Below, piece by piece: positions 3,911 to 19,600 of a stretch of DNA of 25,422 nt (its first letter is position 1; the number at the start of each line of letters is the position of its first letter). The notes under the pieces are model-generated. The model was not told the origin of the DNA, did no database searches, and saw nothing but the letters and a program-made list of their open reading frames with translations. The translations under genes were made by a program, and so were the position numbers. Location of the stretch: positions 1-25,422 of IMG/VR virus record IMGVR_UViG_3300031569_000037; one strand, written 5' to 3'. This DNA is from a virus.

Positions 3911-4627
3911 ATGCAAGGATCTAGTTACCCACAAGAAGTGAAAGATTTTTATTGGAAAAATGTTATAGACGCAGGAATACCAGGAACAGGAGCGCAAGCC
4001 AGAGCTATTATGGTAGCAGAGTATGGAAACTCTCCCGCTAAAGCAACTTTCTATTACTGGATGAAAGGCGATTATGCCCGTGAGCAAAATAAGGCCCGAG
4101 CTGCAAGGCTTAGAAAAGAAAGCCCGATTGTTATAGTAGGAAAACGTTTAGATAAATTTAAACTGAAACAGCCAAGAATAGAGCAAGGACGTTCGATCTG
4201 GGAGCAATACGAGCACCATAACCGAGGCACCAGAATCAGATTTGCCTCTATTGAACCAGCTATTTTATGGGTAATAAATGGTAGAATTTCTAAATTTCAC
4301 GCAAAAGGAACAGGGAAAAAAAGTATGAAAATAGATGAGGGTACTTTTTACGCAAAAGACGTATTAAAATTATGGGAAGATACACAAGGATACAATCCGG
4401 ATACTTATGACTTAGACTGTACTATTTGTGGAGAGCAGCTAAATGTTGTACATAGCATATGGCAGATGGATCATATAGATCCTTCAGCGGGAAACCATTT
4501 AGAAAATACTAGCTGTACCCATAAAGAGTGTAATCAGTCAAAGTCTTCAATGCAGATGGAGGACTATCTGGTACATTGTGAAAAAGTACTTAGGAATTAT
4601 AACAGACTTCCTAAAAATAATTCTTGA
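3911..4627 (+). CDS. HNH endonuclease with N-terminal HTH-like region
   Basis: 238 residues. The C-terminal third has an HNH/zinc arrangement: CTICGEQL, then QMDHIDPSAGNHLENT with the DH pair, then CTHKECNQSK supplying the second Cys pair and the conserved Asn. Residues 25-55 (ARAIMVAEYGNSPAKATFYY) resemble an HTH. Phage HNH proteins are often free-standing homing nucleases that nick DNA in related genomes; that role is inferred. The ATG has AAGGAAAAG upstream. The stop TGA lies inside the -35 box of promoter P2, so gene end and promoter are fused. The gene reads as more A/T-rich than its neighbours, in line with a mobile gene. Confidence 0.85.
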   Translation: MQGSSYPQEVKDFYWKNVIDAGIPGTGAQARAIMVAEYGNSPAKATFYYWMKGDYAREQNKARAARLRKESPIVIVGKRLDKFKLKQPRIEQGRSIWEQYEHHNRGTRIRFASIEPAILWVINGRISKFHAKGTGKKSMKIDEGTFYAKDVLKLWEDTQGYNPDTYDLDCTICGEQLNVVHSIWQMDHIDPSAGNHLENTSCTHKECNQSKSSMQMEDYLVHCEKVLRNYNRLPKNNS

Positions 4628-10405: not shown

Positions 10406-10434
10406 TTGACAGTCACCTTAAAATCGAGTATAAT
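10406..10434 (+). promoter_or_regulatory. Sigma70-type promoter P6 (perfect consensus)
   Basis: TTGACA 10406-10411, 17 bp, TATAAT 10429-10434; lead-in AAAATATATC begins at the helicase stop. The downstream leader ACTTTCAAATTCAA almost repeats that of P5. It is the last promoter before the primase and polymerase genes. Confidence 0.93.
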
Positions 10435-16562: not shown

Positions 16563-17246
16563 GTGTATTTTATATCCGCCCCTTTTGGGAACTATATAAA
16601 CACAAAGAGTACAACTAGCGTTACAGGCAGTTGGACGCTTGCTCCTCGGCCTGGGCTAGTAAAGCAAATAGTTAAAACACTACGCTATACTAGAACAGGT
16701 TGGAGGAATAAACTAGGTCTACGTAATAAAGGCGTAGACCACGGGTGTAGGAAGCATCGTGGCTATAATATAATGAGTCTTGCAGCAATCGAGAAGGATG
16801 ATTGGCCGCAGCTACACAGTATTGTAGACGAGTATACTAGTGTTGAAATAAACATTAGTTGCCCTAACCTAGGTAAGCAAGTAGACCAGTTGTACCCTGG
16901 CTTTGATCTTTGGACACAAGCAAACCGTAAGTGGTGTATTGCTAAAATATCTCCTACAGCGGACGAGAAACTTGTTGACAAATTAGTAGAATCAGGGTAT
17001 AATAGTATTCATGCAAGCAACACATTAGACTCAGAAAAAGGAGGACTTAGTGGTAAAGTACTTATACCTTACACTATGAAGTTAATATCTTACATAAAGA
17101 AAACACACCCCCATGTGCAAGTTATTGCAGGTGGCGGTGTAACGTGTAAGCAAGATGCTGAAGAGTATCTAAACGTAGGAGCAGACCATATTAGCTTAGG
17201 TAGTGTATGCTTCACACCATGGAAATTAAAAGGTATTTTACAATAA
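16563..17246 (+). CDS. Dihydroorotate-dehydrogenase-like FMN protein
   Basis: 227 residues with the beta/alpha-barrel FMN motifs of PyrD: GLRNKGVDHG at 52-61, VEINISCPNLGK at 94-105, IAKISP at 126-131, ASNTL then GGLSG at 151-164, VIAGGGVTCKQDAEEYL at 187-203 and GADHISLGS at 206-214. These are the orotate and flavin phosphate sites. It is about 80-100 residues shorter than cellular DHODs, with a trimmed N-terminus and little between NISCPN and KISP. It could supply pyrimidines, or be a changed flavoenzyme; dihydrouridine synthase is less likely because the NISCPN and GGLSG motifs are those of PyrD. GTG start four bases after the phoH stop. Its stop overlaps the helicase start (TAATG). Confidence 0.78.
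   Translation: MYFISAPFGNYINTKSTTSVTGSWTLAPRPGLVKQIVKTLRYTRTGWRNKLGLRNKGVDHGCRKHRGYNIMSLAAIEKDDWPQLHSIVDEYTSVEINISCPNLGKQVDQLYPGFDLWTQANRKWCIAKISPTADEKLVDKLVESGYNSIHASNTLDSEKGGLSGKVLIPYTMKLISYIKKTHPHVQVIAGGGVTCKQDAEEYLNVGADHISLGSVCFTPWKLKGILQ
16716..16740 (+). repeat. Perfect 8-bp inverted repeat in the dehydrogenase-like gene
   Basis: GGTCTACG (16716-16723), nine-base loop, CGTAGACC (16733-16740). It lies in the codons for GLRNKGVDHG, a conserved flavin-site segment, so the protein may explain part of it. No U-tract follows. Possible mRNA hairpin. Confidence 0.4.
16975..17003 (+). promoter_or_regulatory. Perfect internal sigma70 consensus inside the dehydrogenase-like gene
   Basis: TTGACA 16975-16980, exactly 17 bp, TATAAT 16998-17003, all 12 bases matching. 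It lacks the AAAATANTTC lead-in and the TTTCAA leader of the other promoters. The expected start near 17010 would give a leader of about 236 nt to the UvsW-like helicase at 17246, which has no other promoter. Confidence 0.6.
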
Positions 17247-18529
17247 TGAAAGCACTAATCAGCAATCGCATTTACCTTGAGGTAACGCAGGAATATAAGG
17301 AGTTTTTAAGTAAAGAGCTTACCTATACTATTCCTTCGTTCAATCCGAAAGACCCTCCCTTTGTCATAAAGAATATGGCAAGGGTACGTGATACGCTGGT
17401 TAGTATACCAATAGGAAGAACGGATCTGATACCCTCTGACTACGAAGTAGTTGATAAGCGTATCAATATACCAGTAGACTTTCCAGAGTTTAAGCTGCCC
17501 CTACGACCAAGCCAACAAGAGGTCTACGACGAACTCGAAGACAACTGTATAATAAACGCTTGGGTCAGTTGGGGAAAGACTTTTACAGGTCTTGCCATTG
17601 CTGGTAAGCTGGGACAGAAAACACTCATCATAGTACACACAGTACCTCTAAGAAACCAGTGGGCAAAGGAAGTACAAAAAGTGTATGGAATTACTCCTGG
17701 TATCATAGGCAGTGGAAAGTTTGAAATTGATGCTCCAATTGTAATTGGGAATACTCAAAGTTTATACAGAAACATTCTGAAAATAAACAAACAGTTCGGC
17801 ACTATCATACTAGATGAGATGCATCACGTATCCTCTCCTACATTTTCCAAAGTGATAGACACAAACTATGCTAGGTATAAGATAGGCTTGTCTGGAACTA
17901 TTGAGAGAAAGGACGGTAAGCATGTTGTATTCAGGGATTACTTTGGAAGTAAGGTTTTTAAGCCACCAAAGGAGAACTACATGGTTCCTTCTATAACTGT
18001 ATACCCTTCGGAGATACGGTTCATGGATGGCCAGAGGACTCCTTGGGCTAACAAAGTAACTCACCTGTGTAACCAGGAAGAGTATAGACACAGTGTATCT
18101 CTCATAGCGGCAGCCTACGCTGCAAAGGGGCATAAGGTTCTGGTAGTATCTGACCGTGTGCATTTTCTAAAAGCATGTGCAGAACTGACAGGAGACAGAG
18201 CAATCTGTGTCACTGGAGATGTAGCACACGAAGATAGAGAGACCCTGATAGATGAGATGCGTAGTGGACGGAAGGACGTACTATACGGAACTCAAGCTAT
18301 ATTCTCAGAAGGTATCTCTGTAGATAACCTGAGCTGTTTGATACTAGCAACTCCTGTTAATAACGAGCCTCTGCTCACTCAGCTAATAGGGCGTATCATA
18401 CGCAAGAAAGAGGGTAAAAAACCTCCTGTAGTAATAGATATACACTTAAAGGGGAATACTGCACGTCGGCAAGCTTCCAATAGGATGGGGTACTATATCA
18501 AAGAGGGATATAAAATAAACCAACTATAA
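17246..18529 (+). CDS. UvsW-like superfamily 2 DNA helicase
   Basis: 427 residues from ATG 17246, which overlaps the previous TAA (TAATG); an earlier ATG at 17207 is not needed. SF2 motifs in order: FKLPLRPSQQEVYDEL (Q-like), motif I NAWVSWGKT at 104-112 with K111 (Trp where Ser/Gly is usual), Ia TLIIVHTVPLRNQW, motif II ILDEMHHV at 188-195, motif III GLSGTIERKDG at 214-224, motif V YGTQAIFSEGISV, motif VI QLIGRIIRKKEGK. The order and the LSGT-ERKDG pair match T4 UvsW, which moves branch points and promotes fork regression. Promoter P7 follows 11 bases after the stop. Joined with gp46/47-like genes downstream it fits recombination-dependent replication. Confidence 0.9.
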   Translation: MKALISNRIYLEVTQEYKEFLSKELTYTIPSFNPKDPPFVIKNMARVRDTLVSIPIGRTDLIPSDYEVVDKRINIPVDFPEFKLPLRPSQQEVYDELEDNCIINAWVSWGKTFTGLAIAGKLGQKTLIIVHTVPLRNQWAKEVQKVYGITPGIIGSGKFEIDAPIVIGNTQSLYRNILKINKQFGTIILDEMHHVSSPTFSKVIDTNYARYKIGLSGTIERKDGKHVVFRDYFGSKVFKPPKENYMVPSITVYPSEIRFMDGQRTPWANKVTHLCNQEEYRHSVSLIAAAYAAKGHKVLVVSDRVHFLKACAELTGDRAICVTGDVAHEDRETLIDEMRSGRKDVLYGTQAIFSEGISVDNLSCLILATPVNNEPLLTQLIGRIIRKKEGKKPPVVIDIHLKGNTARRQASNRMGYYIKEGYKINQL

Positions 18530-18540
18530 AAAAATAGTTC

Positions 18541-18569
18541 TTGACATTAGTAACATTTTAAGGTATAAT
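18541..18569 (+). promoter_or_regulatory. Sigma70-type promoter P7 (perfect consensus)
   Basis: TTGACA 18541-18546, 17 bp, TATAAT 18564-18569, lead-in AAAAATAGTTC. The ATG of the next ORF begins at 18570, directly after the -10 box, so RNA made here, starting near 18576, cannot contain that ATG. The spacer also holds AAGG (18560-18563), a fair ribosome site for it. The promoter probably serves the SSB gene at 18974. Confidence 0.92.
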
Positions 18570-18971
18570 ATGCTCTTATATAATTGGAATAAAGTATTTA
18601 AAACTTGCAAAGCGAATCCACCCGAAATCATCCGAGTGTTCAAAATGTTAGTTGACAAGGAGCTACCTTTAAATAAGTATGACCCTGTGTACAAGTACTC
18701 AAACATAGATTTTTCTGGGCAGAGCTTCTTAGTTCACCCTGACGTTCTACTGTACCAACTGTATAAATATTCTTACCGAGATGTTTGCATATACATCGCT
18801 TTTGCAGCTTTACGCTCATATGGCGAATATCAAGCGTCAGGTAAAATAACCTTGGATCTACTGCACTTGCAACTAGATCCTGAAATCTTTATAAACAATA
18901 ATAGACTACTTTGGTTAGAAGGTGATGATATCCATTTCCTTCACGAAGAAGTCCCAATGGAGAAAAACTAG
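18570..18971 (+). CDS. Unknown protein whose ATG lies on a promoter's -10 box
   Basis: 133 residues from the first ATG (MLLYNWNKVFKTCKANPPEI). Helical and rich in Leu/Tyr, with a KYSYRDVCIYIAFAALRSYG segment and acidic end. No family recognised; the YNW and VFKMLVDKELPLNKYD parts look conserved-type. The ATG is preceded by AAGG six bases away but sits at the expected core of promoter P7, so only RNA coming from upstream could use it. From P7 RNA the next in-frame Met is residue 26 (18645), without a ribosome site. Either the full protein is made only on read-through RNA or a shorter form exists. Confidence 0.6.
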   Translation: MLLYNWNKVFKTCKANPPEIIRVFKMLVDKELPLNKYDPVYKYSNIDFSGQSFLVHPDVLLYQLYKYSYRDVCIYIAFAALRSYGEYQASGKITLDLLHLQLDPEIFINNNRLLWLEGDDIHFLHEEVPMEKN

Positions 18972-18973
18972 AT

Positions 18974-19600
18974 ATGGCTATATCATTTAACAAACAAAAA
19001 GGTTCTGCACAGAAAACTTCCATCAGTACTTTTCAGTACAAAGACGGTGACAACCGCATGCGTATTTGTGGCGATATTCTCGCTCGCTATGTGTACTGGG
19101 TGAAAGGTGAGAACGACAAGAACATTCCTCTGGAGTGTCTGTCTTTTGATCGAGATGCAGAAGCCTTTACAAATCAAGAAAAAGATTGGGTTCGTGAGTA
19201 CTATCCCGACCTCAAGTGTGGCTGGAGCTACGCTACACAGTGTATTGACAACGGCGAAATCAAAGTTGTGAATCTCAAGAAGAAGCTCTGGGAATCAATC
19301 ATCAGTGCCGCTGAAGACCTCGGCGACCCTACTGACCCAGTTACTGGTTGGGATATTATCTTCAAGCGAGTAAAGACTGGCCCTCTGCCCTATAATGTAG
19401 AGTACCAGCTTCAAGCTCTGAAGTGCAAGCCCAAAGCTCTCAGCGATGCTGACATGGCTCTAGTAGCTGAGATCAAGTCTATGGACGAAGTAATGTCTCG
19501 CCCGACTCCTGATGCTCAGAAAGAGTTGTTGGATCGTGTACGACAGGCTAGTACATCCGAAGTTGATGACACTCTTGAAGCAGAATTCAACGTAGGATGA
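18974..19600 (+). CDS. Probable single-stranded DNA-binding protein (gp32-like)
   Basis: 208 residues. Basic N-terminus (MAISFNKQKGSAQKTS), a beta-rich core with MRICGDILARYVYWVKGE, IPLECLSF and KRVKTGPLPYNVEYQLQALK, a helical part and an acidic tail (EVDDTLEAEF) of the kind that SSBs use to bind partners. Core C-x-n pattern (ECLSF, KCGWSYATQC) may bind metal as gp32 does, but I cannot confirm it. It lies between UvsW-like and gp47/gp46-like genes, the expected neighbourhood for SSB. Codon use looks more GC-rich than in flanking genes, consistent with high expression from P7. The next gene overlaps as ATGA. Confidence 0.6.
   Translation: MAISFNKQKGSAQKTSISTFQYKDGDNRMRICGDILARYVYWVKGENDKNIPLECLSFDRDAEAFTNQEKDWVREYYPDLKCGWSYATQCIDNGEIKVVNLKKKLWESIISAAEDLGDPTDPVTGWDIIFKRVKTGPLPYNVEYQLQALKCKPKALSDADMALVAEIKSMDEVMSRPTPDAQKELLDRVRQASTSEVDDTLEAEFNVG

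Follow-up and report, generated by a model that had tools for sequence, protein, structure and literature searches.

The probable promoter of the SSB gene in the window (the whole stretch of 25,422 nucleotides that was analysed) would exclude a small gene from its own transcript by its position, the small protein being weakly made from read-through RNA; a probability of about 0.7 is given to this reading. The site starting at 18541 would be an internal σ70-type promoter, the positional equivalent of P31B of phage T5, opening the SSB transcript unit. Its -10 hexamer and discriminator abut and cover the beginning of a conserved small gene, the 133-aa ORF (Table 1). RNA made from this promoter would begin about 7-9 nt past the -10, in codon 3, a position predicted from the spacing at another gene of these phages. 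Devoid of the ATG, it would include the remainder of the small gene as an untranslated stretch ending at the ribosome site of SSB. Synthesis of the small protein would be weak and would depend only on RNA that has come through the polymerase and helicase genes. In such a scheme, the SSB level would be raised and that of the small protein would not, and the small gene is best read as belonging to the upstream replication unit. Anatomy, conservation, translation of codon 2 and start signals that are weak at the ORF but strong at SSB are the parts of the scheme that are read from the DNA itself.

Table 1. Features of the 18541 locus and of candidate upstream promoters (Shine-Dalgarno matches scored with an assumed E. 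coli anti-Shine-Dalgarno).
Feature	Position	Strand	Remarks
Nearest upstream promoter of the phage's own extended type	10406-10434	+	candidate read-through source; 8.1 kb upstream of 18541
TTGACA-N17-TATAAT inside dihydroorotate dehydrogenase-like gene	16975-17003	+	probably a chance match
D10-like helicase gene	17207-18529	+	putative start codon; phrog_16, E 2.4e-71; directly upstream
A-rich element AAAAATAGTTC	18530-18540	+	possible UP element; directly 5' of -35; common to the phage's own promoters
-35 hexamer TTGACA	18541-18546	+	sequence reading; majority frequency mean 0.98 over 48 clusters
-10 hexamer TATAAT	18564-18569	+	sequence reading; majority frequency mean 0.997 over 48 clusters
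133-aa ORF	18570-18971	+	phrog_4258, E 1.3e-16; T5.125 homologue; same D10/D11 interval in T5-like phages
ATG start codon of 133-aa ORF	18570-18572	+	inside promoter discriminator; gap to -10 = 0 nt
Predicted RNA start of 18541 promoter	18576-18578	+	7-9 nt past -10; inferred from ORF 2296 relatives
Met26, proposed alternative start	18645-18647	+	unsupported; match <= -4 kcal/mol in 0/37 clusters having Met26
GGAG, Shine-Dalgarno site of SSB	18959-18962	+	within ORF end; strong match in 39/39 clusters
SSB gene (D11-like)	18974-19600	+	ATG 18974; phrog_1607, E 4.5e-29; probable main promoter target

The window is a fragment of a marine T5-like phage far from cultured members, its DNA polymerase reaching at best 45% identity among the matches listed. 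This assignment follows from the order D10, small gene, D11, which is common to cultured T5-like phages. The 133-aa ORF lies between the D10 helicase and D11/SSB genes, as expected of the T5.125 family, and its match to phrog_4258 is full-length (residues 1-127 against positions 1-117 of the 120 of the profile). As in T5, the gene that comes next after SSB is SbcD/D12-like. In T5, the order is D10, T5.125, D11, and promoters P31A and P31B are annotated between D10 and T5.125; the 18541 promoter occupies the place of P31B, between D10 and the small gene preceding D11. The function of the small protein is not indicated by its matches, which in the viral library are uncharacterized proteins, including those of Proteus phage PM135 and Vibrio phage pVp-1. 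The ORF has no match over the Pfam cut-off in Pfam and none among PDB sequences, its fold has no PDB match with E <= 0.001, and the top Z of the VIA comparison is only 2.0. The AlphaFold model (pLDDT 88.9) is ordered from residue 2, residues 1-12 belonging to the ordered core.

The 18541 site fits the σ70 consensus (TTGACA, 16-18 nt, TATAAT) with a spacer of 17 nt and scores 12/12 in the promoter scan. In the 25,422-base record, TTGACA-N16/18-TATAAT is found seven times, always on the + strand and always with N17, as against no match for the reversed control pattern. The AAAAATAGTTC element, possibly an UP element, is kept in the clade of the window, with several alignment columns at 1.0. Before the -35 of the phage's own promoters at 4624, 5259 and 7430, an A-rich motif ends in TTC; this motif is weaker before 2261 and 10406. 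The main difference between early and late T5 promoters is described in PMC7472727 as residing in the discriminator, early promoters carrying ATATT. The discriminator of the 18541 site is ATGCT and thus is not that of the T5 early class. Because the start codon occupies the discriminator, the time class of the promoter is not readable from the sequence.

Conservation was assessed on 195 loci in 70 clusters, made up of the window, 89, 73 and 20 relatives and 12 loci from a phage collection. Of two retrievals of 80 loci each, 73 loci were used from one (the other 7 repeating contigs already included) and 20 from the other (the remainder being repeats); one further set was not counted apart, and L020 was excluded. 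The 195 loci still contain a few repeats: T5 is present as L030 and L174, and L021 and L196 are probably both pVp-1. Some retrievals used peptide patterns that included the start codon, which partly selected for the presence of Met1, but not for the promoter or its spacing.

The distance from the -10 to the start codon is two-peaked among the 195 loci, with 121 loci at 0-4 nt, 2 at 11 nt and 72 at 16 nt or more, the automatic promoter choice possibly shifting some leadered gaps, such as those at 33-35 nt, by a few nucleotides. The initial annotation had noticed that the -10 box touches the ATG. The coordinates confirm it, and the clade keeps this arrangement: the ATG is 0-2 nt past the -10 in every one of its 116 loci (48 clusters, window included). 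Within these clusters, the majority frequency of the spacer averages 0.64, whereas the -35 reaches 0.98 and the -10 0.997. A single ATG past a promoter could be a matter of luck; its conservation in the clade excludes that the abutment is due to chance. The five loci at 0-4 nt outside the clade are those of three Riker-type phages, of Eos and of KKP_3711, whereas most T5-like phages outside the clade have a leader of at least 16 nt, usually with a Shine-Dalgarno site. In Eos, Klebsiella phage Riker and Enterobacter phage KKP_3711, the start codon at the same locus is likewise close to the -10, 1-4 nt past it; however, these phages have further TATAAT boxes closely upstream, which the window lacks, and the start codon of KKP_3711 is TTG. 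T5 itself (AY543070) resembles the window in its arrangement D10, small gene, D11/SSB, D12, with P31B just before the small gene, but its leader measures about 29 nt and contains GAGGAG, and its homologous start is an ATT, whereas the window has no leader and an ATG touching the -10. The SSB gene in the gene 32 region of T4 also has a promoter inside the preceding gene; the neighbouring genes are unrelated to those of the window, and an overlap of promoter and start codon is not known there.

Where RNA starts with respect to such a -10 may be predicted from another gene of the window. RNA start sites of σ70 promoters lie about 6-9 nt past the -10. At ORF 2296, the ATG is 6 nt past a perfect TATAAT (2261-2298), and 80 relatives of this ORF were retrieved, among which 75 of the 78 with upstream sequence have the ATG 6-7 nt past the -10. 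The mRNA of ORF 2296 is itself predicted to be leaderless. Both loci are tightly packed, without leader, but at ORF 2296 the RNA is expected to begin at the ATG. If the spacing of ORF 2296 marks the RNA start in these phages, RNA from the 18541 promoter would start in codon 3, and codons 1 and 2 would therefore precede the promoter RNA. Codon 2 is a Leu codon in 46 of the 48 clade clusters, represented by TTG (19), CTC (13), TTA (9), CTT (2), CTG (2) and CTA (1). Since Leu2 is kept with all six codons, codon 2 is translated, and this would be from RNA made upstream. This implies that upstream RNA would read through the promoter site into the ORF. Thus, the gap of 0-2 nt and the constancy of Leu2 support the initial proposal that promoter RNA lacks the ATG and that the full ORF needs read-through RNA. 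The stronger statement that promoter and start codon exclude each other would hold for one RNA species only: the DNA is where the promoter acts, the start codon being used in RNA, and the two RNA species can be present together.

The starts of the ORF and of SSB differ sharply in their signals. With an assumed E. coli anti-Shine-Dalgarno, which may not be that of the host, and a strong match defined as <= -4 kcal/mol, SSB has a strong match in all 39 clusters (mean -7.6 kcal/mol) and the ORF in 2 of 39 clade clusters; in the wider set, 3 of 51 overlap clusters have such a match at the ORF, as against 14 of 18 leadered ones. The AAGG at 18560-18563, within the promoter spacer, had been taken for a ribosome site; it is present in the window but, judged by the 3 of 51, is not kept as such. 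The RNA around the SSB start is open (unpaired 0.62 versus 0.449 in control stretches, p 1.4e-18). That openness might replace the Shine-Dalgarno at the ORF start was considered and rejected, this start being no more open than control stretches (0.45, p 0.43). According to PMC3121790, Shine-Dalgarno-independent starts depend on open RNA; the ORF start not being open, translation of the ORF is probably weak. On promoter RNA before SSB, an in-frame start with a Shine-Dalgarno match (E. coli anti-Shine-Dalgarno assumed) is absent in 36 of 48 clusters; the other 12 have one, at several differing places, and no such internal start is common to the whole clade. The first well-equipped start would be that of SSB, in agreement with the initial suggestion that promoter RNA serves this gene.

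The same RNA consequences would arise without any selected regulatory effect if a squeeze of the intergenic region had made the promoter and the start codon meet, both then being needed. This alternative has slightly less than an even chance of being true. In 41 of 48 clusters, only 10-18 nt separate the stop of the upstream ORF from the -35, the distance being 33 nt in 3 others, and AT often follows the -10 boxes of these phages, so that one G gives an ATG. The deep conservation could be explained by two needed, overlapping elements, with few insertable positions between the -10 and the ATG. Against it, the overlap state changes three times on a quick tree built from the ORF and SSB, two changes being forced by starred branches, although long branches call for caution; on this basis, the overlap would have had at least two origins among T5-like phages. 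The promoters found elsewhere in these genomes also argue against a mere squeeze. Three long relatives have 26 promoter matches, 21 of which were examined (5 sites of G002 repeating those of G001 were left out); a gap of 0 is seen only for the ORF/SSB promoter (two of 21), the others mostly having leaders of at least 20 nt (20-49 nt) or a gap of 7 nt, and a few having no clear gene start. The promoters of L399 and L407, with an ATG 7 nt past the -10, belong to candidate leaderless genes. L407 has a further in-frame ATG overlapping the -10 by two bases (-2), an ambiguous exception.

It is tempting to imagine, although the odds are against it, that the -10 was placed on the start codon as a selected removal of the gene from the strong transcript, which evolved two or more times and fixes the ratio of small protein to SSB. 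The level of the small protein would then be set by read-through and that of SSB by its own promoter, the ATT of T5 being another tuning of the same start. In leadered relatives, the transcript of the SSB promoter includes the ORF, whose ribosome site is good there (14/18, as scored above with the E. coli sequence); low dosage is therefore not a need of the whole family. If true, position alone would sort a gene out of a transcript, through a deeply conserved overlap of promoter and start codon. A large group of phages would then offer, beside SSB, a compact case of control of a protein ratio, and a rule would be gained for the annotation of gene starts in T5-like phages. In the literature on promoter/start overlap, phage AUU starts, T5 start mapping and internal promoters, where subscription papers were thinly covered, the arrangement was not found.

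The initial annotation had gone further in proposing a switch, early read-through giving the full protein and later promoter RNA giving SSB and a short form started at Met26. Promoter RNA is indeed expected to lack the ATG, and 37 of 39 clusters do have Met26, but none of these 37 has a Shine-Dalgarno match <= -4 at Met26 (E. coli anti-Shine-Dalgarno assumed), and such a start would remove residues 1-12 of the ordered core. Moreover, in a 13-row alignment, Met is at position 26 only in the window and L008, and at 27 in five others. No sign of differing timing was found. The own-type upstream promoter at 10406 is far away; in two long relatives, G001 and G002, the nearest comparable promoter on this strand is about 5.5-5.7 kb upstream of the orthologous site. 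The 16975 promoter was rejected as a read-through source, being devoid of the family motif and absent from L001, L002, L003 and L006, near relatives whose ORFs are 97-99% identical. The short form and the switch are thus very unlikely.

That the ATG at 18570 is not the real start, the ORF beginning downstream or being no gene, is even more improbable. The weak initiation signals of the ORF and the annotation of T5.125 from an internal Met would favor this idea; however, the N-terminus is kept from residue 1 in leadered and overlapping homologues, and Leu2 varies synonymously. Residue 1 of the ORF aligns with the start of leadered T5-like homologues, which is well 3' of their promoter. In T5.125 (L030 5647-6009, AY543070), the codon aligned with Met1 is an ATT past GAGGAG, as in 21 of 21 T5-group loci (T5 counted twice), and the GenBank start is an internal Met 26 codons 3' of this ATT. 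Codons 2-25 of T5.125 show 8 synonymous and 4 amino-acid changes with respect to L152, and there is no in-frame ATG, GTG or TTG between the upstream stop and the annotated Met. For both reasons, the real start of T5.125 is probably AUU, and the annotated one probably 26 codons too late. In L195 (1492) and L216 (1495), ATT and ATA, respectively, are found at the Met1 position past strong Shine-Dalgarno matches (again with the E. coli sequence), and in-frame TTG codons occur further upstream.

Scarcely credible, finally, is a leaderless mRNA beginning at the ATG of the 133-aa ORF, in spite of the low Shine-Dalgarno signal of the ORF in the clade and of another gene of these phages that looks leaderless, since the leaderless gap is 6-7 nt (75/78) as against 0-2 nt here (116/116) and σ70 RNA starts lie beyond such a distance.

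Near the ORF end (18869-18968), the codons CTA-CTT and GAAGAAGTC show almost no synonymous change. A conserved RNA structure before SSB, suggested by this constancy, was rejected, RNAalifold giving 0 pairs; the constancy of the GAAGAAGTC codons may reflect the SSB ribosome site.
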